Source: Chthonomonadales bacterium
GTDB lineage: Bacteria > Armatimonadota > Chthonomonadetes > Chthonomonadales > CAJBBX01
NCBI GenBank assembly: GCA_020849275.1
Contig: JADLGO010000058.1
Coordinates: 1 to 64,000, forward strand
DNA: 64,000 nucleotides
Reading direction: 5' to 3'
Positions 37,747-61,460 of the stretch are shown in pieces. The notes under the pieces were generated by a model. The model had not been told where the DNA came from and made no database searches. It saw only the letters and a program-made list of their open reading frames with translations. Numbering within the stretch: position 1 is the first letter of the stretch; each line of letters opens with the position of its first letter. The position numbers and the translations under genes were made by a program.

Positions 37747-37846
37747 GCGCGCCCGAGGGGAGGAAGGCGAGGCGGCGCGGGCGAATGGGCCGGCGTCAGC
37801 CGCCGGGGCCGGTCCCGGCCGCGCCCAGTTCCCCGGGGAGGTTCCC

Positions 37847-40800
37847 ATGCCCTTCACGGCTCCGTCGTCGCCCTTCGGAGTGTGCGTGTGGCCCGTGCCT
37901 TCGCAGAATCTGGCCCGCGCCGTCGAGTATCCCCAGTACGCCAGGGAGGTGCTCGCGCATGCCGGCGTGTGCCATGCCGACATCGCACCCGAGGACCTCG
38001 GCGAGGCGCTCCCGGCCCTGCGCGTCCTGCTCACCGTGGGCGAGGGGCGGCCCGACCCGACGCTGGCGTCGGGCCTCGACGAGTGGGTGCGCGGCGGCGG
38101 AGCGTGGATCAGCGTGGGCAGCGCCTGTGGCCTGGACGCGGCCTTCGGCGTGGCGCCCGAGGATCCTGCCTTTGCCTCATGGGCCGGCGGCGCCGTCACG
38201 CTGGGCGAGGGCTATCTGGAGCCCGCCAGCGGCCACCCCGCCGTGGCCGACCTCCCTCTCCCGCTCCACTACTTCAATGGGGCCGCGGTGCGCGCTGTCG
38301 GCGCCGAGGTGCTCGCGCGCTGCCTGGACCCGCGCGGCGGCCGCACCGGGCGGGCCGCCGTCACGCTCATGCGTGACGGCGCCGGCTGGCGCATGCTGAT
38401 CGCGCCCGACCTCACCGGCGCCATCGTGCGCATCCAGCAAGGCATCGCCGTGACGCGCGACGGCCCCCCCGCTCCCGACGGAACCGCGCCCACGTCCGAC
38501 GGCGTCCTCAAGAGCGACGACGGCATCGTGCTCGACTGGGACCTGGATCGCCGGCCCGTGCCCGGCATACCGGGGATGCGCGCCTTCCTGGAGCCGGTGG
38601 CCGACCTGTGGCGGGAGGTGCTGCTGCGCGCAGTTCTGCACGCGGCGCGTGACCGCGGCCTCTGCCTCCCGCTTCTCTGGTTCTACCCGCGCGGACTCCC
38701 CGCACTGGCCCACCTCTCGCACGACACCGACCTGAACCACCCGGCGCGGGCCCTCGAGCTGCTGGAGGTGCTCGCCGAGGCGGGCGTGCGCGCCACCTGG
38801 TGCGTGATCCTGCCCGGCTACCCCGCCGAGGTGATCGCCGCCATCGGCGCGCGCGGCCACGAGCTCGCCATGCACTTCGACGCGATGTCCGACGGCACGC
38901 TCTGGTCGGAGGATGCCTTCCACGAGCAGCACCGCCTTCTGACGGAGGCGTTCAGCGGCGCTCGGCCCGTGAGCAACAAGAACCACTACCTGCGCTGGGA
39001 GGGCGACGCGGACGTCTGGGAGTGGTGCGTCCGGCGCGGCATCCTGCTCGACCAGTCCAAGGGGGCCTCGAAGACGGGCGCAGCCGGCTATGGCTTCGGC
39101 GCCTGCCACCCCTATCGCCCGGTCACGCCGGACGGCCGCGTGCTGGACGTGCTGGAGATGGTGACGTGCACCCAGGACATGGAGGTGTTCGTGCCGCGCG
39201 CCTTCTCCGCCGCGCTCACCGAGACGGCACTGCGCCACCATGGCGTGCTGCACATGCTCTACCATCCCGCCCACATCGACAAGCCGGGCGTCGCCGACTC
39301 GCTGCGCGAGTGCGCGGCGGACGCGCGGGCGCGCGGCATGGAGTGGTGGACCGCGCGCGAGATCGCCGAGTGGGAGCGCGCGCGGCGGGCGGCGGCCTGG
39401 GACAGCCATGCCGCCGCGCCGGGCGAGGCGAGCGCCGTGCTGCGCGCCGGTGAGGCGATGCCGGGCGCCACGGTGCTCTGGCTGGCGCCGGAGGGCGCGC
39501 GGATGGAGGTGGACGGCGCCCCGTGCGCCGTGGAGGAGGTGGAGCGCTGGGGCTTGCGGTTTGCATCGGTGAGCCTGGACGCGCCGGCCGGCTCGGCCAC
39601 GCGGCTCTCCGCCCGCTGGGTCGCCCCGCCGGAGGCCGCCGCGCCGCCGCCGGACGACGCCACCCCGGCGATCGCTGGCGGCGCGCCGGCCATGGCCGGG
39701 CCCTACGGCCGCGAGACGCGCTACGGCGAGCCGGAGTTGCGGCAACTGCGCGAGGCGCTGGAGCAGGGAACGCTCTTCTACGCGCAGGGCCGCAAGGTGC
39801 GGGCGCTGGAGGAGGCCTTCGCGAATCGGCTGGGCCTGGGCCACGCCGTCGCCTGCTCCAGCGGCACGGCGGCCATCCACGCCGCGCTCATCGCGCTGGG
39901 CGTGTCGCCCGGCGACGAGGTGATCACCTCGCCGATCACCGATATGGGCTCCGTGATCCCCATCCTCTTCCAGGGAGCTGTGCCCGTGTTCGCCGACGTG
40001 GACCCGCGCACCGCCAACCTGGATCCCGCCGCCGTCGAGCGCGCGATCACGCCGCGCACGCGGGCCGTCGTGGCCGTGCACCTGGCCGGCAACGCGTGCG
40101 ACCTGGACGCGCTCTCCGCGCTCTGCTCGGCGCGGGGAGTGCCGCTCGTGGAGGACTGCGCGCAGGCACTCGGCTGCACCTACCGCGGCCGGCCGGCGGG
40201 CACGCGAGGCGCCGTCGGGTGCTTCAGCCTCAACGAGTTCAAGCACATCTCCTGCGGTGACGGCGGCCTGGTCGTGACGGAGGACCCCGACCTGGCCGTG
40301 CGGCTCCAGTTGGCCGTTGACAAGTGCTACGACCGGCGGCCGGGAGTCGCCGTGCGCAACCCCACCTTCCTGGCCGCCAACTATCGCATGACCGAGCTGC
40401 AGGGCGCGGTCGCGCTGGCGCAACTGGGTCGGCTGGACGACATCGTGGCGCGGCGACGGGCCTGGTGCTCGGCGCTCACGACGGCCCTCGCCGGCACGCC
40501 CGGTCTCCTGTTGCCGGAGCCGACCACCGGGTGCGACCCGTCGTGGTGGTTCTACCTGATGCGCGTCGACCGGGAGCGGCTCGGCGCCGACGCCGACGGC
40601 CTGGCGGCCGCGCTGCGGGCAGAGGGCCTCCCGACTGGCGCGCACTACATCGGCCAGTGCGTCTACGAGTACCCGCTCTTCGTCGACCACGCCGCGTTCG
40701 CGCGCGGGGCGCATCCCTTCGCGGCGCGCCCCTATGGCGCGGGCCTCTGCCCGAGCGCCGAGGAGGTGCTGCGCACCTGCGTGCTGCTCAGCGTGAACGA

Positions 40801-40897
40801 GGGCTACACGCGCGAGGACCTGGAGGGCACGGCGCGCGGCATCCGGCGATCGGCGGCCTGGCTGGCCGCGCGCGGAGCACCCGCCGCGGGCGGGTAG
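37847..40897 (+). CDS. Fusion of a glutaminase-like domain, a polysaccharide deacetylase-like domain and a DegT/StrS sugar aminotransferase
   Basis: This 1016-residue protein has at least three parts. Residues about 1-270 resemble a class I glutamine-amidotransferase-like fold (VLLTVGEGRPDP, then GGGAWISVGSACG), probably without the full triad. Residues about 285-540 look like a NodB-type polysaccharide deacetylase: LAHLSHDTDLN holds the metal-binding acidic pair, ATWCVIL follows, and later HPAHIDKPG. Residues about 615-1016 are a complete DegT/DnrJ/EryC1/StrS aminotransferase with SSGTAAIHAAL, D-C-A-Q-A-L-G and the PLP lysine Lys799 in NEFKHIS. The aminotransferase half would make an amino sugar nucleotide; the deacetylase half would act on an N-acetyl sugar. 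I know of no common fusion of this kind. GGGAGG precedes ATG 37847. There is no signal peptide, so all parts act in the cytoplasm. Confidence 0.8.
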   Translation: MPFTAPSSPFGVCVWPVPSQNLARAVEYPQYAREVLAHAGVCHADIAPEDLGEALPALRVLLTVGEGRPDPTLASGLDEWVRGGGAWISVGSACGLDAAFGVAPEDPAFASWAGGAVTLGEGYLEPASGHPAVADLPLPLHYFNGAAVRAVGAEVLARCLDPRGGRTGRAAVTLMRDGAGWRMLIAPDLTGAIVRIQQGIAVTRDGPPAPDGTAPTSDGVLKSDDGIVLDWDLDRRPVPGIPGMRAFLEPVADLWREVLLRAVLHAARDRGLCLPLLWFYPRGLPALAHLSHDTDLNHPARALELLEVLAEAGVRATWCVILPGYPAEVIAAIGARGHELAMHFDAMSDGTLWSEDAFHEQHRLLTEAFSGARPVSNKNHYLRWEGDADVWEWCVRRGILLDQSKGASKTGAAGYGFGACHPYRPVTPDGRVLDVLEMVTCTQDMEVFVPRAFSAALTETALRHHGVLHMLYHPAHIDKPGVADSLRECAADARARGMEWWTAREIAEWERARRAAAWDSHAAAPGEASAVLRAGEAMPGATVLWLAPEGARMEVDGAPCAVEEVERWGLRFASVSLDAPAGSATRLSARWVAPPEAAAPPPDDATPAIAGGAPAMAGPYGRETRYGEPELRQLREALEQGTLFYAQGRKVRALEEAFANRLGLGHAVACSSGTAAIHAALIALGVSPGDEVITSPITDMGSVIPILFQGAVPVFADVDPRTANLDPAAVERAITPRTRAVVAVHLAGNACDLDALSALCSARGVPLVEDCAQALGCTYRGRPAGTRGAVGCFSLNEFKHISCGDGGLVVTEDPDLAVRLQLAVDKCYDRRPGVAVRNPTFLAANYRMTELQGAVALAQLGRLDDIVARRRAWCSALTTALAGTPGLLLPEPTTGCDPSWWFYLMRVDRERLGADADGLAAALRAEGLPTGAHYIGQCVYEYPLFVDHAAFARGAHPFAARPYGAGLCPSAEEVLRTCVLLSVNEGYTREDLEGTARGIRRSAAWLAARGAPAAGG

Positions 40898-40987: not shown

Positions 40988-42322
40988 TCAGTTCTCGATG
41001 CGGTCCGGCGACGTGTCGACTTGCGTGATCGTCCAGTCGCCACGCACGCGCTCCATCACGACGCACAGATAGACATCGCGGGTCTCGTCGTCGCGATTGC
41101 GGTAGCTGTGCTTCGCGAAGACCTGGTAGACCCCGCTGGTCTTCGGGCGCACGCGGTAGACCTCGAAGCCGGTGGTCCGCGCCGCGCCGAAGAAGTCGCG
41201 CGTCATGTCCAGGTAGTCGCTCGCCTCCACGGAGTACTCGTAGCGCCCCCGCCCGAAGACGGCGATCTTGATCGTCGGGTCGGTCAACGAGGCGAGCTGG
41301 TCGATATCGCCGCTCGTGAAGGCGCCGCGCAGGTCCTCCACCGCCCGCCATAGGCCGGGCTCGTCCTTCCAGCGGTCGTCGTAGCGGCGCTCGAGGTAGT
41401 AGCCGTCGTCGTCATCGCGGTAGCCGCGGTAGGCCCCACCGACGTAGATCGGGACGTCGATGTAGACCACAGAAGGCCGCGCGTACAGGCCGTAACTCCG
41501 GTAGATGTATGGCGGGCAGACGCCATAGTAGAAGTAGAACGGCGAGAAGTAGACCTCGACCGAGGCTCGCGGCGGCGCATAGTGCGGGTAGTACGCGTAG
41601 CGATGCGGGAAGTAGCGGTCCAGTCGCCGATCGGTGAACTGGTGCGGCGGGCGCAGGTGCGAGCGCATCTCGCGCCGGCGCGCCTCAAAGCGCGGCCCCT
41701 CGTGCCGGTCGCCATCGCGCCGCCACGAGGATGAGTCGCGCGGGCCGCCGCGGCGCAGTCCGGATGTGCCCCCTCGGTCATAGCGGTCGCCGCCGGCGCG
41801 CCGATCCTCTGGGGTCCTCTCGTGGCCACCGCGCCGGTCGCCGGCGGTCGCGCGGTCCTGGCCGCCCCGGTCGCCGCGATCCGCCTGGTTGCCGCGATCG
41901 AGGTAGTAGCGCGGGCGCTCGCGCGAGCCGGCGTCGTTCGGCCGCGAGCCGCGGTCCCAGGCTCGCTCGCGCGAGCCGGTGTCGTTCGGCCGCGAGCCGC
42001 GGTCCCAGGTTCGCTCGCGCGAGCCAGTGTCGTTCGGCCGCGAGCCGCGGTCGCCGCCGCCAAGCCGGGCGCGGTCTACCCCCCCGCCGTCGGATCGGGC
42101 ACGCCCTCCGTACGAGCGGCCCTCGCCGCGCTCCTGCCCGCCCCGGCCGATGCTCCCGCGGTCGCCGCCACCAGTCCGCGAGGGCGACGGGCTTCCGCCG
42201 CCGCGCCGCGAGCGTGACTGGGCCTGCGCGGCGGAAGGCACGACCAGCACCAGCCCGAGAAGGCAGGCGAGCGCCGGTATCGTCCATGCGGCGCCCCGCC
42301 CGCCTATCAGTCTGCTCTCCAT
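40988..42322 (-). CDS. Secreted low-complexity protein with NTF2-like C-terminal domain
   Basis: The 444-residue protein starts with a signal peptide ending near PSAAQAQS. Residues about 36-190 are Gly/Arg/Asp-rich and include three near-identical 16-residue repeats opening with D-R-G-S-R-P-N-D (91-138). A Tyr/Pro-rich segment follows (about 205-300), with RYFPHRYAYYPHYAPP. The last ~125 residues (starting LRGAFTSGDIDQLASL) resemble an NTF2/SnoaL-type fold, as in small secreted sensor or stress proteins. The function is unknown. Start ATG 42322 has AGGAGG 8 bases upstream. The repeats are conserved at DNA level, which suggests recent expansion. Confidence 0.65.
   Translation of the reverse strand: MESRLIGGRGAAWTIPALACLLGLVLVVPSAAQAQSRSRRGGGSPSPSRTGGGDRGSIGRGGQERGEGRSYGGRARSDGGGVDRARLGGGDRGSRPNDTGSRERTWDRGSRPNDTGSRERAWDRGSRPNDAGSRERPRYYLDRGNQADRGDRGGQDRATAGDRRGGHERTPEDRRAGGDRYDRGGTSGLRRGGPRDSSSWRRDGDRHEGPRFEARRREMRSHLRPPHQFTDRRLDRYFPHRYAYYPHYAPPRASVEVYFSPFYFYYGVCPPYIYRSYGLYARPSVVYIDVPIYVGGAYRGYRDDDDGYYLERRYDDRWKDEPGLWRAVEDLRGAFTSGDIDQLASLTDPTIKIAVFGRGRYEYSVEASDYLDMTRDFFGAARTTGFEVYRVRPKTSGVYQVFAKHSYRNRDDETRDVYLCVVMERVRGDWTITQVDTSPDRIEN
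41909..42052. repeat. Three 48-bp tandem repeats inside the secreted protein gene
   Basis: Three consecutive 48-base units encode 16-residue repeats of the form DRGSRPNDTGSRERxW. The first two units differ at one codon, the third at two or three. They are a coding minisatellite and could vary in copy number between strains. Confidence 0.85.
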
Positions 42323-42530
42323 TCGTTGTTCCTCCTGCGGCACTCCACCGGCGCCTTCCGCGATCGTGCCTCTCCGTTACATACGCGCGCCGGGTCGGGT
42401 CGTGACATGTCGGGCGCCGTGGGCCGGTGCACGGGACGGCGGGACGGGGCGGGAACCCAACCGTGCCGGGCGGTCGGCGCAGGAGGCCGCGCGCCGCCCG
42501 CCGAAAACGCCGGCGAGAGGAGATCGCGAC

Positions 42531-46375: not shown

Positions 46376-46506
46376 GCGCCTGCCTTGCGCGGCCGCGAGG
46401 GCAGGTCTCGATGCTTGCGATGGTGTGATAGCCACCGTTCGCGCCACAGGTCCGCGCGCCTCGCGAGGGGCGCCGCGCGGACGTGCTCACCGCGTCGGAG
46501 GCCACC

Positions 46507-48708
46507 ATGAGGACCATCATCCTGACCATCGGCCAGAGGGCGGCCGCCGGGTATCCGGCCCGCCTCTACCTGGTCGACGGAAACGGAGACGTTCCGGAGC
46601 AGCCGGCCGGGGAGACCGTGATCCCGCTCGACCTCGGCGGGCCCGACGCGCCCGGGCCCGACGGCGAGCCGGCTGTGGCCCACCGCTTGCGCTCCGTCCT
46701 GCTTGAAGCCGCCGGCTATTCGACGGACCTTCGCCGCGTTGGCCGGCATCTCCACTCCCTCCTCCACACCGGCACGCTCGCCGACGCGTGGGACGACCTG
46801 CGCGAGCGCTACCCCCGCGAGGCCGCGCCCGAGCAGGGCCTGCGCACCCTCCTGGACATGCGCGACCCGGACCTGCGGCGACTCCCCTGGGAGCTGCTGT
46901 GGGACGGCGGTCGGCGCCGGTTCTTCGCCGACCCCGCCAATCCCTTCGTGCGCGGGCGCACGCGTCCAGGAGGCCAGTCGCCAGCCTGCACGTGGCCGGT
47001 CCGCGTCCTCGTCGTCGTCGGCTGGGCGGACGACGACCCGGCCGTTCGCGTGGCGGACGAGGTGGAGGGCATCGAGGACGCCTTCCGACGCATGGGGAAG
47101 ACCGTCTACTTCGAGGTGGAGCGACGCCCCGCGAAGGACCGCCTCCTGGGGACCCCGGGCCGGCCGGGGGTGATCGAGCGTCTGCGGCCTCACATCTTCC
47201 ACTTCATCGGCCACGGACGGGGACCCGGCGGCCAGGGAGACACCGGCGCCCTGCTCATCGAGGCCGAGATGGGCGGCTGGGAGCTTACCGCCTACGACGC
47301 CGCCGTCTGCTTCCCGCGCTGGCCGCCGCGTTTCGTCTGCCTCAACGCCTGCCGCTCCAGCGACCTGGCCGTGCAGGAGGGCGCGTGGGCCATGGCCGAT
47401 GCCTTCGAACAGCTCGGCGTGCCGGCAGTGCTCGGGATGCAGGCCGACGTACGCGGCGATGCGGCCGCCCGATGCGCCGCCACGCTCTATGCGGCCCTGG
47501 CGGATGGCGAGCCACTGGACGTCGCCCTCGCCAGGGGCCGGGCGGCGGTGACGACCCTGCCCGACATGACCTGGGACCACCGCGACTGGGCCCTGCCCGC
47601 CCTCGCTCTCCGGGTGTCGCCAGAGCAGGTGCTGCCCGTGGCCGCGGGAGCCGAGCAGGCGAAGCGGCGCGCGATGCTGGAGAGGACCGACGAGTTCGCG
47701 CGGCTGCGCAACTTCGTTGCCCGCACACCCGAACGCTGGGAGCTGTGGGCCGGAGTGGATCCCTTCCATGACGACCAGCGCTACAGCGACATGCTCGTGG
47801 TCGTGGGAGAGGAGCAGGCCGGCAAGACAGCTCTCGTCCACTGGTGTCTGGAGGGTGTGGTGCTGCGCGGCCGGCCCGTGCGCTACGTCAACATGCGGAC
47901 GCTGGACTCCGCCGACTTCCTCGGCTTCCTGCGGCTGATCGCTAGAGGTGGTGGGAGCCCCCCGCTCGACGCCGACCTCCCCGCCGAGGCGTTCCACGCG
48001 TTCAATCGTTCGCTCAACCGCTACCAGGCGGGCGGACCCTTCACGGAGGGCCCGGGCCTGCCAGCCGTGCCCGACGAGGACCAGGGCCTGCCGCTGCGGC
48101 GCGGCTCCGAGCGCGAGAACGTGGCGATCGTGCAGGCCTTCCGCGAGGCGCTGCGCCACGCCGCCGGAGATCGGCCACTCATCCTGGTTCTGGATCACCT
48201 GCGCGTGGAGCCGGAGGACTGGCGCAACTACCTCTACCCGCACCTCGTCCGGCATATCGCCGAGCACAGCCTGCACCCGATGCGGCTCGTCCTGGTCGTG
48301 ACGGCCCGCCAGTACGCCGACTTCGGCCTGGCAGACCACGCGGGGGTCGCGCCGGTCATCCGGCTCGAATACTTCGAGAGCAAGGCGTTCATGGGCCTCG
48401 CCTGGGAGTTCGGGCGCTACTATCGCTGCCTCAATAGCCACATCGACGGCGACGACATCCACACGCTGATCCAGGTCCTCGACAATACGAGCATCTCGCG
48501 CGCGCGCTGGGCTCCGACGGAGCTCGAGGTCATCACGAAGGTGTTCTCGCGGCAGGAGCCGGCCGTGCAGGCTTCGCTCAGCGACATCGTCGAGCGCCTG
48601 CGGCAGGGCGAGGACCCGGCCGCCCTCGCTCTCTCGCTGCTGCCGAGGGGCGGGCGGGAATTGCTGCGCGCCTGCGCGCTCGCGCGCCTTCGACCCGCCG
48701 CTCGTTGA
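46507..48708 (+). CDS. CHAT-domain (caspase-like) protease fused to a P-loop NTPase; C-terminus apparently cut by a frameshift
   Basis: The 733-residue product has a CHAT protease domain (about 90-385) with the catalytic dyad His236 in FIGHGRG and Cys282 in LNACRSSD, both intact. A STAND/AAA-like NTPase follows, with Walker A GEEQAGKT (434-441) and a Walker B-like LILVLDHL (about 562). CHAT proteases joined to STAND modules act in programmed cell death and anti-phage immunity. Start ATG 46507 has GGAGG 6 bases before it. The frame ends at TGA 48706, but similar sequence continues at once in the next frame from about 48690 (F-D-P-P-L-V-E-Q-A-L), so the natural protein was probably longer. No transposon is seen nearby. 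Confidence 0.8.
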   Translation: MRTIILTIGQRAAAGYPARLYLVDGNGDVPEQPAGETVIPLDLGGPDAPGPDGEPAVAHRLRSVLLEAAGYSTDLRRVGRHLHSLLHTGTLADAWDDLRERYPREAAPEQGLRTLLDMRDPDLRRLPWELLWDGGRRRFFADPANPFVRGRTRPGGQSPACTWPVRVLVVVGWADDDPAVRVADEVEGIEDAFRRMGKTVYFEVERRPAKDRLLGTPGRPGVIERLRPHIFHFIGHGRGPGGQGDTGALLIEAEMGGWELTAYDAAVCFPRWPPRFVCLNACRSSDLAVQEGAWAMADAFEQLGVPAVLGMQADVRGDAAARCAATLYAALADGEPLDVALARGRAAVTTLPDMTWDHRDWALPALALRVSPEQVLPVAAGAEQAKRRAMLERTDEFARLRNFVARTPERWELWAGVDPFHDDQRYSDMLVVVGEEQAGKTALVHWCLEGVVLRGRPVRYVNMRTLDSADFLGFLRLIARGGGSPPLDADLPAEAFHAFNRSLNRYQAGGPFTEGPGLPAVPDEDQGLPLRRGSERENVAIVQAFREALRHAAGDRPLILVLDHLRVEPEDWRNYLYPHLVRHIAEHSLHPMRLVLVVTARQYADFGLADHAGVAPVIRLEYFESKAFMGLAWEFGRYYRCLNSHIDGDDIHTLIQVLDNTSISRARWAPTELEVITKVFSRQEPAVQASLSDIVERLRQGEDPAALALSLLPRGGRELLRACALARLRPAAR

Positions 48709-58024: not shown

Positions 58025-59547
58025 TGCCCCCGGGGCGGTGCGTACCGCGCGCCGCCCCCTTCTGCGCCGATATGGCCGAAATCGCCGTCGTCGACCCCGG
58101 CGCGCGCATCGTGGACCGCTGGGAGGGCTGGGGCTGCAGCCTATCCTGGTGGGCCGTCTGCTCCGCCCACTGGCCCGAGTCGGCTCGCGCCGAAGCCTGC
58201 CGTCGGCTCTTCAGCCGGACGTCGGACGCGCTGGGCCTGAGCATCTGCCGGTACAACGCCGGCGGCACCGCGCCAACCGCCGACCCGGCTCCCTACCGGC
58301 CGGGCGGGCGCGTGCTCGCCATGCTCGACCGCGACGGCTCCTGGCGCCCCGAGCGCGACGCCGCGCAGATCTCCTGCCTGCGGCTCGCCCGGCGCTCTGG
58401 GGCCAACCGGTTCGAGCTGTTCGTGAACTCCCCGCCCTGGTGGATGCTGCGAAGCGGCAGCACGCGCGGCGGCGATGGAGGAGGCGAGAACCTGGAGCCG
58501 GGGCACGAGCGAGACTACGCGGAGTGGCTGGCGGAGACCGCGGCGCGGCTCGAGTGCGAGGCCGACGTGCGCTTTGGCTCCGTCGCGCCCTTCAACGAGC
58601 CCTCGGCGTGGTGGTGGAACGGGGCGACGAGCGGCCAGGAGGGCTGCCGCGTCTCCTGGCCAGCGCAGGCGCGCGTGGTGCGCCATCTGAACGAGGCCCT
58701 GCGCCGCCGCGGGGTTCGCGCCGTCGCGGCCTGCTCCGACGAGAACGGCGCGCACGAGGCCTACAACACCCTGGACTGGCTCACCCGGCCCGAGGGGGGT
58801 GCCCTGCGCGCGCACGCCATCGGCCGCCTGAACGTGCACGCCTACCACGGATGGGAGTGGCAGGAGCGCCTGCGCGACCTGTCCGCCGCGCGAGGAGTGC
58901 CCGCGGTGTGGATGTCCGAGGTCACCTACCGCGAGTGGGGCGAGCCGGCCTACGTCCCGAACGACATGCGGTGCGCCTTGCCCGTCTCTCGCTCGATCGT
59001 CGGCGACGTGCGACGCCTGGGGTGCCGCGGCTGGGTCTACTGGCAGCCGGTGGAGCCGCTCTCGTTCTCACTTACCTACCGCTACACGTACGGCTTCCTG
59101 CAGGCGGCGGTTGACGTCGGGGTGCCGTGGGGAGGACGCATCTACGGTCCGGGCGACTGCGTGGTGGCCAGGTCTTTCCACGTCATGATGCAGTTCTCGC
59201 GCTTCGTGCTGCCCGGGTTCCGCGTCGTGCGCTCCGGCGACGATTGGACCCTCGCGGCACACTCGCCCTCGGGCGATCGCCTGGTGCTCGTGGCGCACCA
59301 CGATGGAGAGGGCCCCCGGGAGCTGCGCTACGACCTCCGGCGGTTCGCACGGGCCGGCGAGACCGCCGCCGCGTGGCGCACCCAGAACGACGACGCATCG
59401 GGGGCCTGGGCGTGCCGAGCGATCCCGGCGCTTCCCGTGCGCGGCGGCACGCTAGAGGTCACGCTGCCCCCGCGCTCCGTCACCACCTACCGCATCGACG
59501 ACATGCGCCTGACCCCGGAGATGTCGGTCGATGCCGGTCAGAAATAG
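58024..59547 (+). CDS. GH30-like glycoside hydrolase
   Basis: This 507-residue protein resembles GH30 (endo-beta-1,6-galactanase and related): N-terminal D-R-W-E-G-W-G-C-S-L-S-W-W, the acid/base Glu in PFNEPSAWWW, and the nucleophile Glu in VWMSEVTYREW. A C-terminal beta domain (about 400-490) follows. No signal peptide is seen, so it acts in the cytoplasm or is exported by another route. It starts inside the small membrane protein gene's stop codon. Its last ten bases overlap the convergent membrane-protein gene. It likely is the enzyme whose sugar products control the LacI regulator. Confidence 0.8.
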   Translation: MPPGRCVPRAAPFCADMAEIAVVDPGARIVDRWEGWGCSLSWWAVCSAHWPESARAEACRRLFSRTSDALGLSICRYNAGGTAPTADPAPYRPGGRVLAMLDRDGSWRPERDAAQISCLRLARRSGANRFELFVNSPPWWMLRSGSTRGGDGGGENLEPGHERDYAEWLAETAARLECEADVRFGSVAPFNEPSAWWWNGATSGQEGCRVSWPAQARVVRHLNEALRRRGVRAVAACSDENGAHEAYNTLDWLTRPEGGALRAHAIGRLNVHAYHGWEWQERLRDLSAARGVPAVWMSEVTYREWGEPAYVPNDMRCALPVSRSIVGDVRRLGCRGWVYWQPVEPLSFSLTYRYTYGFLQAAVDVGVPWGGRIYGPGDCVVARSFHVMMQFSRFVLPGFRVVRSGDDWTLAAHSPSGDRLVLVAHHDGEGPRELRYDLRRFARAGETAAAWRTQNDDASGAWACRAIPALPVRGGTLEVTLPPRSVTTYRIDDMRLTPEMSVDAGQK

Positions 59548-61460
59548 TAGCTGTAGGTGTTGACGCCGAGCGCCCAGCCCACGAGCGGCCACGCGCAACC
59601 GATCAGGTAGTCGCCGAGTGTGAGGCCGAGGAAGAACGGCACGAAGCGTCGGTAGCCCGCCAGGCCGCTGTAGCGCAGCACGGCCGCCTTGCAGACCCAC
59701 GCGATGAGCAGCGGCATCCACAGCGTGCTCATCGAGAAGCTCCCCGACACGGCGAAGCCGAGCGGGTGGAAGGGCCACCACGCCAGCCTCATGCGTCCCA
59801 CCTGCAGCAGCATCGTCGTCGCGAGCCCGACCCCCACCGCGATGACCGCCGGCGGGTCCGTGTCGCGCGGACTGGCGATCCAGCCCGAGAGGCGGTTAAA
59901 GGCCTCCCAGCCGAAGCCGGTGAAGTGGCTGGCCATGCGCACCTCCGCGCCGCTGCGGTAGCCCAGGTGATAGAGCGCCCAGCAGCCGGAAACGAGGCCG
60001 ACCACGGAGGCCAGCACGAGCGCCGCCGCGATGCCTCTCGGCGCGATGCCTCGGCGCTCGCCAATCTTGAACGCCTCGAGCTGGTAGGGCATCGCGATGC
60101 TGCGGTAGGCGCGGTTGAACCAGTAGAAGTAGGTTAGGGCGCCGAGCGCCTGCGGCGAGAAGCCGCGTGTGCCGAGCACCGCCGTCAGTATGTAGTCCGG
60201 CCCGCCGTTGTGCAGGTCGTGCGCGGGCGGGCCGAGCTCGGCGCGCATGCGCGTGCAGGCCAGCGCGATGGCGAAGTAGATGGCGAACGCCGCGATGGAC
60301 ATCCAGAGCGGCAGCCCGGCAGCCGACATGAAGGCCGCCAGCGCGGCGAAGCCGGCCAGCGCGCCAAGCAGCGCGGCGCGGTAGCTCATCGGCTCGTCCG
60401 GCTCGCGGCGCCAGCCCGAGCGCGCGGCCTCCCTGGCCACGTGGGCCAGGTGCCGGCGCGCCCCCCACACCGCTAGCAGCGCAACGCCCATGTAGGCCCC
60501 GAACGACTGCTCGTTGACGTAGGGGAACTGCGGGCTGTGCTCCTGCCAGCCGTAGAGGCTGCTCACGATTCGCTCCCCGCGCCACATCAAGCAGAAGAAC
60601 CAGCTCGAGAACAACAGGTCGACGGGCAGCAGAAACCCCAGTCCGATGGCGAACGGGTAGAAGGCGATCACCGTCCCTCCCATCGCGTTCCACGGCGGGT
60701 TCGGGAAGTAGGGAGCGATGTCCTGGGCCTTCACCGGGACCGAGGGCAGGCTCGGAAAGAGCACCGCCAGGCCGTTGAGCAGGCTGATGCCACCGGCGAG
60801 CGCGAACCCCGCCCACATGGAGCGCTGGCGGTAGAACGCGCCGGAGGGGTCCGTCATCTCCAGGGGCAGCTGAAGGATGGGGTAGCTGAGCTTCTCGTGG
60901 CGGATCCACTGGCGCCGCACGAGCACGTTCATGCAGAGCATCACCCACAGGAGCACGAGCGCGAAACCGCCCCAGGCCGCCACCGGTACGAGCCAGGCGC
61001 GCACGTGCACCCACTTGTAGGGGTCGGCGCCGCCGGCGTACCATCCCTTCAGGGCGTTGGCGTCGGTCACGTACAGCCAGGTCGGCAGGGACTTGACGAA
61101 GAGCTCCTGCCATCCGTTGGAGGCCGTGGCGTAGCGGGTCGGATGCCCGAGCATCGGGAAAAGCACGTCCAGGAAGTCGATGCTTGCCAGGCAGGTGCCG
61201 ATCGTCAGCATCACGTAGACGACGAGAAGGTCGGCCTGCGAGAGCGCCCAGGAGGGCCGGGCGCGGCGCAGGAGGGCGTTGCCGGCGCCCAGCGCCACCA
61301 CGAAGCAGATCACGTTGGCGAAGAGCGAGAGCGACGAGGGGTAGGGCCCGAGATACTGGGTGCCGCGCAGCGTGCCGCTCGTGGCCATCTCCATCCGCAC
61401 AAGCCACAGGGCGTTGATGGGCAGCAACAGCGTGCCGGCCACGAGGGCACGCGCGCGCAC
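59538..61460 (-). CDS. DUF6785-like polytopic membrane protein
   Basis: The 640-residue protein has about 14-15 predicted membrane helices, resembling the DUF6785/DUF6784 family of large membrane proteins found in Armatimonadota and Planctomycetes, distantly similar to oligopeptide transporters. Characteristic segments are the N-terminal G-T-C-L-A-S-I-D-F-L-D, the central W-I-R-H-E-K-L-S-Y-P-I-L-Q-L-P-L-E-M and LHNGGPDYI. The function is not known. The start is GTG 61460 and lacks a clear ribosome binding site, so it may be a little further in. It follows the Gfo/Idh gene by about 95 bases. Confidence 0.65.
   Translation of the reverse strand: MRARALVAGTLLLPINALWLVRMEMATSGTLRGTQYLGPYPSSLSLFANVICFVVALGAGNALLRRARPSWALSQADLLVVYVMLTIGTCLASIDFLDVLFPMLGHPTRYATASNGWQELFVKSLPTWLYVTDANALKGWYAGGADPYKWVHVRAWLVPVAAWGGFALVLLWVMLCMNVLVRRQWIRHEKLSYPILQLPLEMTDPSGAFYRQRSMWAGFALAGGISLLNGLAVLFPSLPSVPVKAQDIAPYFPNPPWNAMGGTVIAFYPFAIGLGFLLPVDLLFSSWFFCLMWRGERIVSSLYGWQEHSPQFPYVNEQSFGAYMGVALLAVWGARRHLAHVAREAARSGWRREPDEPMSYRAALLGALAGFAALAAFMSAAGLPLWMSIAAFAIYFAIALACTRMRAELGPPAHDLHNGGPDYILTAVLGTRGFSPQALGALTYFYWFNRAYRSIAMPYQLEAFKIGERRGIAPRGIAAALVLASVVGLVSGCWALYHLGYRSGAEVRMASHFTGFGWEAFNRLSGWIASPRDTDPPAVIAVGVGLATTMLLQVGRMRLAWWPFHPLGFAVSGSFSMSTLWMPLLIAWVCKAAVLRYSGLAGYRRFVPFFLGLTLGDYLIGCAWPLVGWALGVNTYSYYF

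Follow-up and report, generated by a model that had tools for sequence, protein, structure and literature searches.

The gene at 37847-40897 (forward strand) of the window, meaning the whole stretch of 64,000 nucleotides that was analysed, is a lineage-specific, derived fusion of a gene pair which is conserved and usually adjacent in relatives. Its 1016-residue product is judged, with somewhat better than even confidence, to be a tethered N-deacylase/transaminase catalyzing consecutive steps in an amino-sugar pathway that is as yet undescribed and probably catabolic, whereby we infer the chemical activity, the order of the steps and the catabolic direction from the observed frame, predicted fold, conservation, gene neighbourhood and co-occurrence. 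When the genes of two uncharacterised proteins are fused, this strongly indicates that the proteins cooperate. In the present case, a deacetylase-like family for which neither Pfam nor NCBIfam has a model becomes connected to one particular DegT aminotransferase clade, and gene co-occurrence adds two further enzymes, yielding a four-gene pathway hypothesis. In addition, the family offers a NodB enzyme whose metal site is altered, along with related clades devoid of the active site.

One reading frame for a conserved gene pair

The open reading frame starts with ATG, comprises 1016 codons and is preceded by a ribosome-binding site (GGGGAGG, 37835-37841, forward strand), with the ATG following 5 nt further on. 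GC3 amounts to 0.85-1.00 throughout the frame and to 0.96 at the junction, and neither a start nor a stop codon was found at the join of the two halves. Given the ribosome-binding site and the codon bias, which is steady across the junction, the frame is considered sound, as had been proposed in the initial annotation. Both halves are connected by a Pro/Ala-rich linker (residues 591-604, 39617-39658, forward strand) which was modelled with low confidence (pLDDT <50 for residues 593-602 in the full-length model) and resides where the relatives possess a stop and a start codon. As the full-length model of the fusion reached a pTM of only 0.52, it is not used to position the two halves relative to each other.

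A search for the same fusion, covering 291 Armatimonadota species genomes and a scan of genome contigs by which alone the other phyla were sampled, revealed no second case beyond the source genome, as all homologues with both parts encode these in separate open frames. The two genes lie within ~1 kb of each other in 17 other Armatimonadota genomes, while in five they are distributed over different contigs, and at the 13 junctions that were read the start of the aminotransferase gene mostly overlaps the stop codon or falls within ~30 bases. In a tree of the N-terminal half (N-half), the fused protein branches off by itself, without a closely related sister sequence. Stop-codon read-through in the relatives was considered as well, but 5 of the 13 pairs share one frame (with TGA or TAA in between), which about equals the one in three expected by chance and hence gives no read-through signal. 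The initial annotation knew of no described example, and none was found within the open-access literature.

That the fusion is an artefact, i.e., that two genes were joined by assembly or by a sequencing error, was taken into account, since it occurs in one genome only among the 291 species genomes and the contig scan. This explanation is very improbable. The conserved adjacency of the pair in the 17 other genomes argues against it, and by the same synteny an assembly join, which the initial annotation had named as a possible refutation, is ruled out for unrelated genes. Moreover, none of the frames contains a stop between residues 576 and 640 that a single indel might introduce, and no start codon of a second gene precedes the conserved TPAIAGG motif, which continues in frame; hence two genes would not be recovered by a single indel. 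Codon bias, too, is unbroken over the junction.

Two further observations were made on the homologues. Both genes are present in a Caldilineaceae MAG (L023) and a Phycisphaerae MAG (L035), labelled as Chloroflexota and Planctomycetota respectively, where the sequences are nested among those of Armatimonadota, pointing to either horizontal transfer or mis-binned contigs. In genome G058 (L037/L093) the N-half gene is split across two overlapping frames, which suggests a frameshift in that assembly.

Predicted fold and active site of the deacetylase-like half

For residues 1-590, neither Pfam nor NCBIfam yielded a match at curated cut-offs. For the Pfam family Polysacc_deac_1 (CE4), the window protein scored 11.6 bits as compared to a gathering score of 23.1 and is hence not assigned to CE4, while weak matches to this family were found in 13 of 20 N-half homologues (best homologue E 0.0036), next to matches to DUF4350 in four and to GH42M and ThuA in single ones. 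An AlphaFold2 model of the N-half, based on the 20 homologues, reached a pLDDT of 87.5 and a pTM of 0.90, and its best PDB folds identified with Foldseek were Agd3 (CE18, E 1.3e-10) and PelA (CE21, 5.8e-10), followed by GH42 beta-galactosidases and NodB proteins, including ArnD, PuuE and the PuuE relative 1z7a. The GH42 matches presumably arise through the trimerisation domain of these enzymes. On the sequence level, the N-half profile gave no PDB match even at E 1, and no CE18 homology to Agd3 was identified.

The predicted plan consists of a glutaminase-like/CBM87-like auxiliary domain (domain 1, 37871-38581; AlphaFold2, Foldseek and alignment), a NodB-fold barrel as the deacetylase-like catalytic domain (38666-39391; weak profile matches, predicted fold and conserved residues) and a C-terminal beta-sandwich (39392-39616; AlphaFold2), all encoded on the forward strand. 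The motif residues locate to the ends of the predicted strands 287-292, 339-345, 401-405 and 467-471, as the NodB homology fold demands. The NodB-like deacetylase of the initial annotation thus stands with regard to its predicted fold, to which the weak Polysacc_deac_1 matches of the homologues add, while the activity is likely rather than certain. Likewise, the fold of the proposed glutaminase-like domain is present, as documented by the Agd3 and GH42 trimerisation-domain matches, but domain 1 possesses no invariant Cys that could serve as class I glutamine amidotransferase nucleophile, the elbow position being occupied by Cys, Ala or Gly. As the Cys of the catalytic elbow is not conserved, domain 1 is not a glutaminase and is regarded as auxiliary. 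In Agd3 from Aspergillus fumigatus, a glutamine-amidotransferase-like alpha/beta/alpha domain serves as CBM87 (PMC7229062). By eye, no signal-peptide-like N-terminus was found.

Within the NodB barrel, motif 1 (Asp293-Thr-Asp295, codons 38723-38731, forward strand) is spaced like D528/D530 of PelA and likely provides the base and the metal-binding Asp. Motif 2 (His343-Phe-Asp345, 38873-38881, forward strand) is followed by Met347, which replaces the second His of the canonical HxxxH, and the motif 5 region extends from His469 to His476 (39251-39274, forward strand), with His473 as the likely general acid. An invariant set of 15 residues was identified (D293, D295, E339, H343, D345, N377, N379, H380, R383, D402, K405, E437, H469, H473 and H476). 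In the main clade, 31 of the 32 distinct proteins possess all of them, the remaining one having Arg at 405. This clade includes Chloroflexota homologues of ~40% identity, and three neighbouring rows deviate at one or two of the 15 positions. The metal triad of CE4, CE18 and CE21 (Asp and two His, HxxxH) is incomplete, as Asp295 and His343 are there while the second His is exchanged for Met, Val or Leu. Considering this and the invariance of Asp345 within the main clade, the metal site is unlike that of the three families. Since the second metal histidine is missing, the term deacetylase is used here as a putative label, with de-N-acylation being the most likely reaction of the NodB half as judged from sequence and model.

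In the diverged N-half homologues of families f22-f25, the 15-residue set is broken up, and their genomes are devoid of a close aminotransferase homologue. These proteins (L075, L096-L104, L109, L110) have most catalytic residues replaced while the fold core is retained, and they are possibly pseudoenzymes with another role.

The aminotransferase half, its partners and the proposed pathway

Residues 605-1016 (39659-40894, forward strand) form an intact DegT/DnrJ/EryC1/StrS PLP aminotransferase, as documented by PDB matches and by the PF01041 profile, which covers residues 628-964 (E 5e-89; 299 bits vs a gathering score of 19.8). Lys799 (codon 40241-40243, forward strand) is the PLP-binding lysine and resides within the sequence NEFKH; it is invariant in an alignment whose rows were read through TGA, as are Asp770, Gln773 and the SGTA motif, the latter being reduced to SGT in the wider homologue set. 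The earlier proposal of a NodB-fold part joined to a full PLP aminotransferase with Lys799 was thereby corroborated. ArnB was the best match in the PDB sequence search, and on the structural level Fic25 came out on top, the other best matches being a sugar transaminase of metagenomic origin, perosamine synthase and, again, ArnB. The scores for the named NCBIfam sugar-aminotransferase equivalogs all stayed below cut-off (ArnB, PRK11658, 228 of 631 bits; PseC, 209 vs 423 bits; the remaining ones lower), hence no substrate name is derived from homology.

PuuE exemplifies a NodB fold with a different type of substrate and with no need for a metal (PMC10967932), and the NodB half might cleave another, non-sugar amide (a cyclic imide, a ureide or an N-acyl amino acid) in a PuuE-like manner, the released amine being taken by the aminotransferase. 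The presence of PuuE and 1z7a among the fold matches and the non-canonical metal site are consistent with this idea, as is the ligand in the Fic25 structure, which is an N2-acetyl-DADH adduct and not a nucleotide sugar. However, the three-domain plan fits carbohydrate deacetylases (PMC7229062) and the gene neighbours are carbohydrate-degradation genes, which renders a non-sugar substrate rather improbable.

Among the 291 genomes, close homologues of the N-half were found in 28, close homologues of the aminotransferase in 30 and both in 24, whereby the aminotransferase is present in 24 of the 28 N-half genomes vs 6 of the 263 others (Fisher p 1e-25, a value that is too small, as Fisher p-values ignore the kinship among genomes and so overstate their independence, even though several families are involved). 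In six genomes only the aminotransferase is present, and in four only the N-half. Co-occurrence and adjacency support functional coupling of the halves, as anticipated in the initial annotation, and from their being separate, usually neighbouring genes in the relatives a shared, still undescribed sugar pathway is suggested. All of the N-half genomes (28/28) also encode a PF01370-type SDR and a member of the DHDPS superfamily; the two genes are a near-constant pair, the SDR being present in 52 of the 53 genomes with the DHDPS-like gene, and are probably an undescribed sugar pathway pair. A beta-propeller-like protein (weak match) co-occurs in 19 of the 28 genomes, its gene adjoining that of the N-half at many loci. 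The genes of these three partners (SDR, DHDPS-like and propeller protein) reside together on contig C9 (116838-123142) of the source genome; hence the module is present but split. No NCBIfam name was obtained for any of the three partners. The SDR and the distant DHDPS-superfamily protein are encoded at L114:8779-9894 and L114:11926-13146 (G000 contig C9) and also at L088:13231-15356, while the propeller protein of 630 residues (L022:6325-8220 and relatives; G000 C9:116838-118724) matches no Pfam family above cut-off.

The gene neighbourhood bears on the direction of the pathway. In the relatives, Gfo/Idh/MocA oxidoreductases, Amidohydro_2 and M20 amidohydrolases, a class III aminotransferase, a sulfatase, heparinase-like, GH95, 3-keto-disaccharide hydrolase and xylose-isomerase-like proteins as well as LacI and AraC regulators are encoded nearby; in the window, neighbours are a sugar ABC importer, heparinase II/III-like, apiosidase-like, sulfatase and GH30 proteins, a LacI regulator and a DUF6785 protein. 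The fused gene itself stands alone, divergent from its neighbour and with no Gfo/Idh genes alongside, and for the Amidohydro_2 protein encoded next to the gene in one relative, the source genome gave no match. As glycan and amino-sugar degradation genes accompany both the fused gene and the genes of its relatives, breakdown is favoured, and the route to an unusual sugar via UDP-sugars suggested earlier thereby gives way to amino-sugar breakdown. The phosphohexomutase gene next door, formerly linked to the fusion, was dismissed as a partner, for it points away from the fused gene and its proximity is not conserved in relatives, a distant homologue being found at one other locus only, ~5 kb off.

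The opposite, biosynthetic direction would have the aminotransferase form a perhaps nucleotide-linked amino sugar from which an acyl or formyl residue would be removed by the NodB half, for a surface polysaccharide and comparable to ArnB/ArnD in the 4-amino-4-deoxy-L-arabinose (Ara4N) pathway. In its favour, the window contains a cluster for envelope polysaccharide (23-30 kb; SDR, GHMP kinase, UDP-GlcNAc 2-epimerase and flippase); ABC-2 exporter genes near the pair in some relatives, ArnB as best PDB sequence match of the aminotransferase and ArnD among the fold matches of the NodB half point the same way. Nonetheless, this direction is considered unlikely, as the equivalog scores are far under the NCBIfam cut-offs, no formyltransferase, glycosyltransferase or nucleotidyltransferase was found among the conserved neighbours, and those that are conserved look catabolic.

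For the favoured catabolic reading, the following course may be envisaged. The first half, a cytosolic NodB-fold amide hydrolase with an Agd3-like three-domain plan, would most likely act on a small amino sugar or an acid derived from one, stripping off its N-acyl group (acetyl or formyl). The DegT-family PLP enzyme that makes up the second half would swap the freed amine for a ketone or operate in the opposite sense, using glutamate/2-oxoglutarate or a comparable couple, so that deacylation and transamination would be consecutive steps of one pathway. An SDR dehydrogenase/epimerase and an enzyme of the DHDPS superfamily probably belong to it as well, their genes being found elsewhere in the source genome. 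By tethering the enzymes, the flexible linker would fix their ratio and perhaps allow the intermediate to be handed on. Only tentatively do we extend this to a single-chain N-deacylase/transaminase with substrate channelling, a non-canonical DxD and HxD metal site and a NodB/DegT/SDR/DHDPS core for an undescribed degradation of amino sugars or amino-sugar acids in Armatimonadota and some other phyla.

Further features of the window were recorded. A DUF6785/DUF6784 protein (59538-61460, reverse strand) is of the kind found beside the N-half in relatives L078, L088, L089 and L093. The gene at 46483-48708 joins a CHAT protease-like domain to an AAA ATPase domain and possibly encodes a signalling or defence protein, and a 451-residue open reading frame at 40988-42343 (reverse strand) contains a repeated DRGSRPNDTGSRER segment.

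Comparison with known systems

The N-half resembles Agd3 (CE18/CBM87), its best fold match, in combining a glutamine-amidotransferase-like carbohydrate-binding module, a NodB barrel and a beta-rich C-terminus (PMC7229062). The two share ~10% identity, however, and Agd3 is a secreted enzyme with a polymer substrate, adjacent D377-D378 and HxxxH, whereas the N-half possesses DxD and HxD, no signal peptide and an attached PLP enzyme. PelA (CE21), the second-best fold match, shares the Asp-x-Asp motif 1, the NodB fold and a beta-rich C-terminal domain (PMC12022489), but is periplasmic, carries a glycoside hydrolase domain of its own and has H600/H604 as HxxxH (PMC12022489). In the Ara4N pathway, a DegT aminotransferase (ArnB) and a NodB deformylase (ArnD) likewise act within one amino-sugar pathway, though as two separate proteins with ArnD being membrane-associated; the ArnB model score of the fusion is far under cut-off, and no ArnA-like gene was found near the fused gene. 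Closer in direction is the oxidative chitin route, a degradation in which OngB and OngC directly deacetylate and then deaminate an amino-sugar acid (PMC12017989); OngB, however, is D-aminoacylase-like, not homologous to known carbohydrate de-N-acetylases and unfused (PMC12017989). As a fusion of two amino-sugar enzymes from the same pathway which are separate in most species, the ArnA dehydrogenase-formyltransferase offers a parallel (PMC12650200); it joins other enzymes and is near-fixed in Enterobacterales, as compared to the one genome in which the proposed N-deacylase/transaminase fusion was identified.
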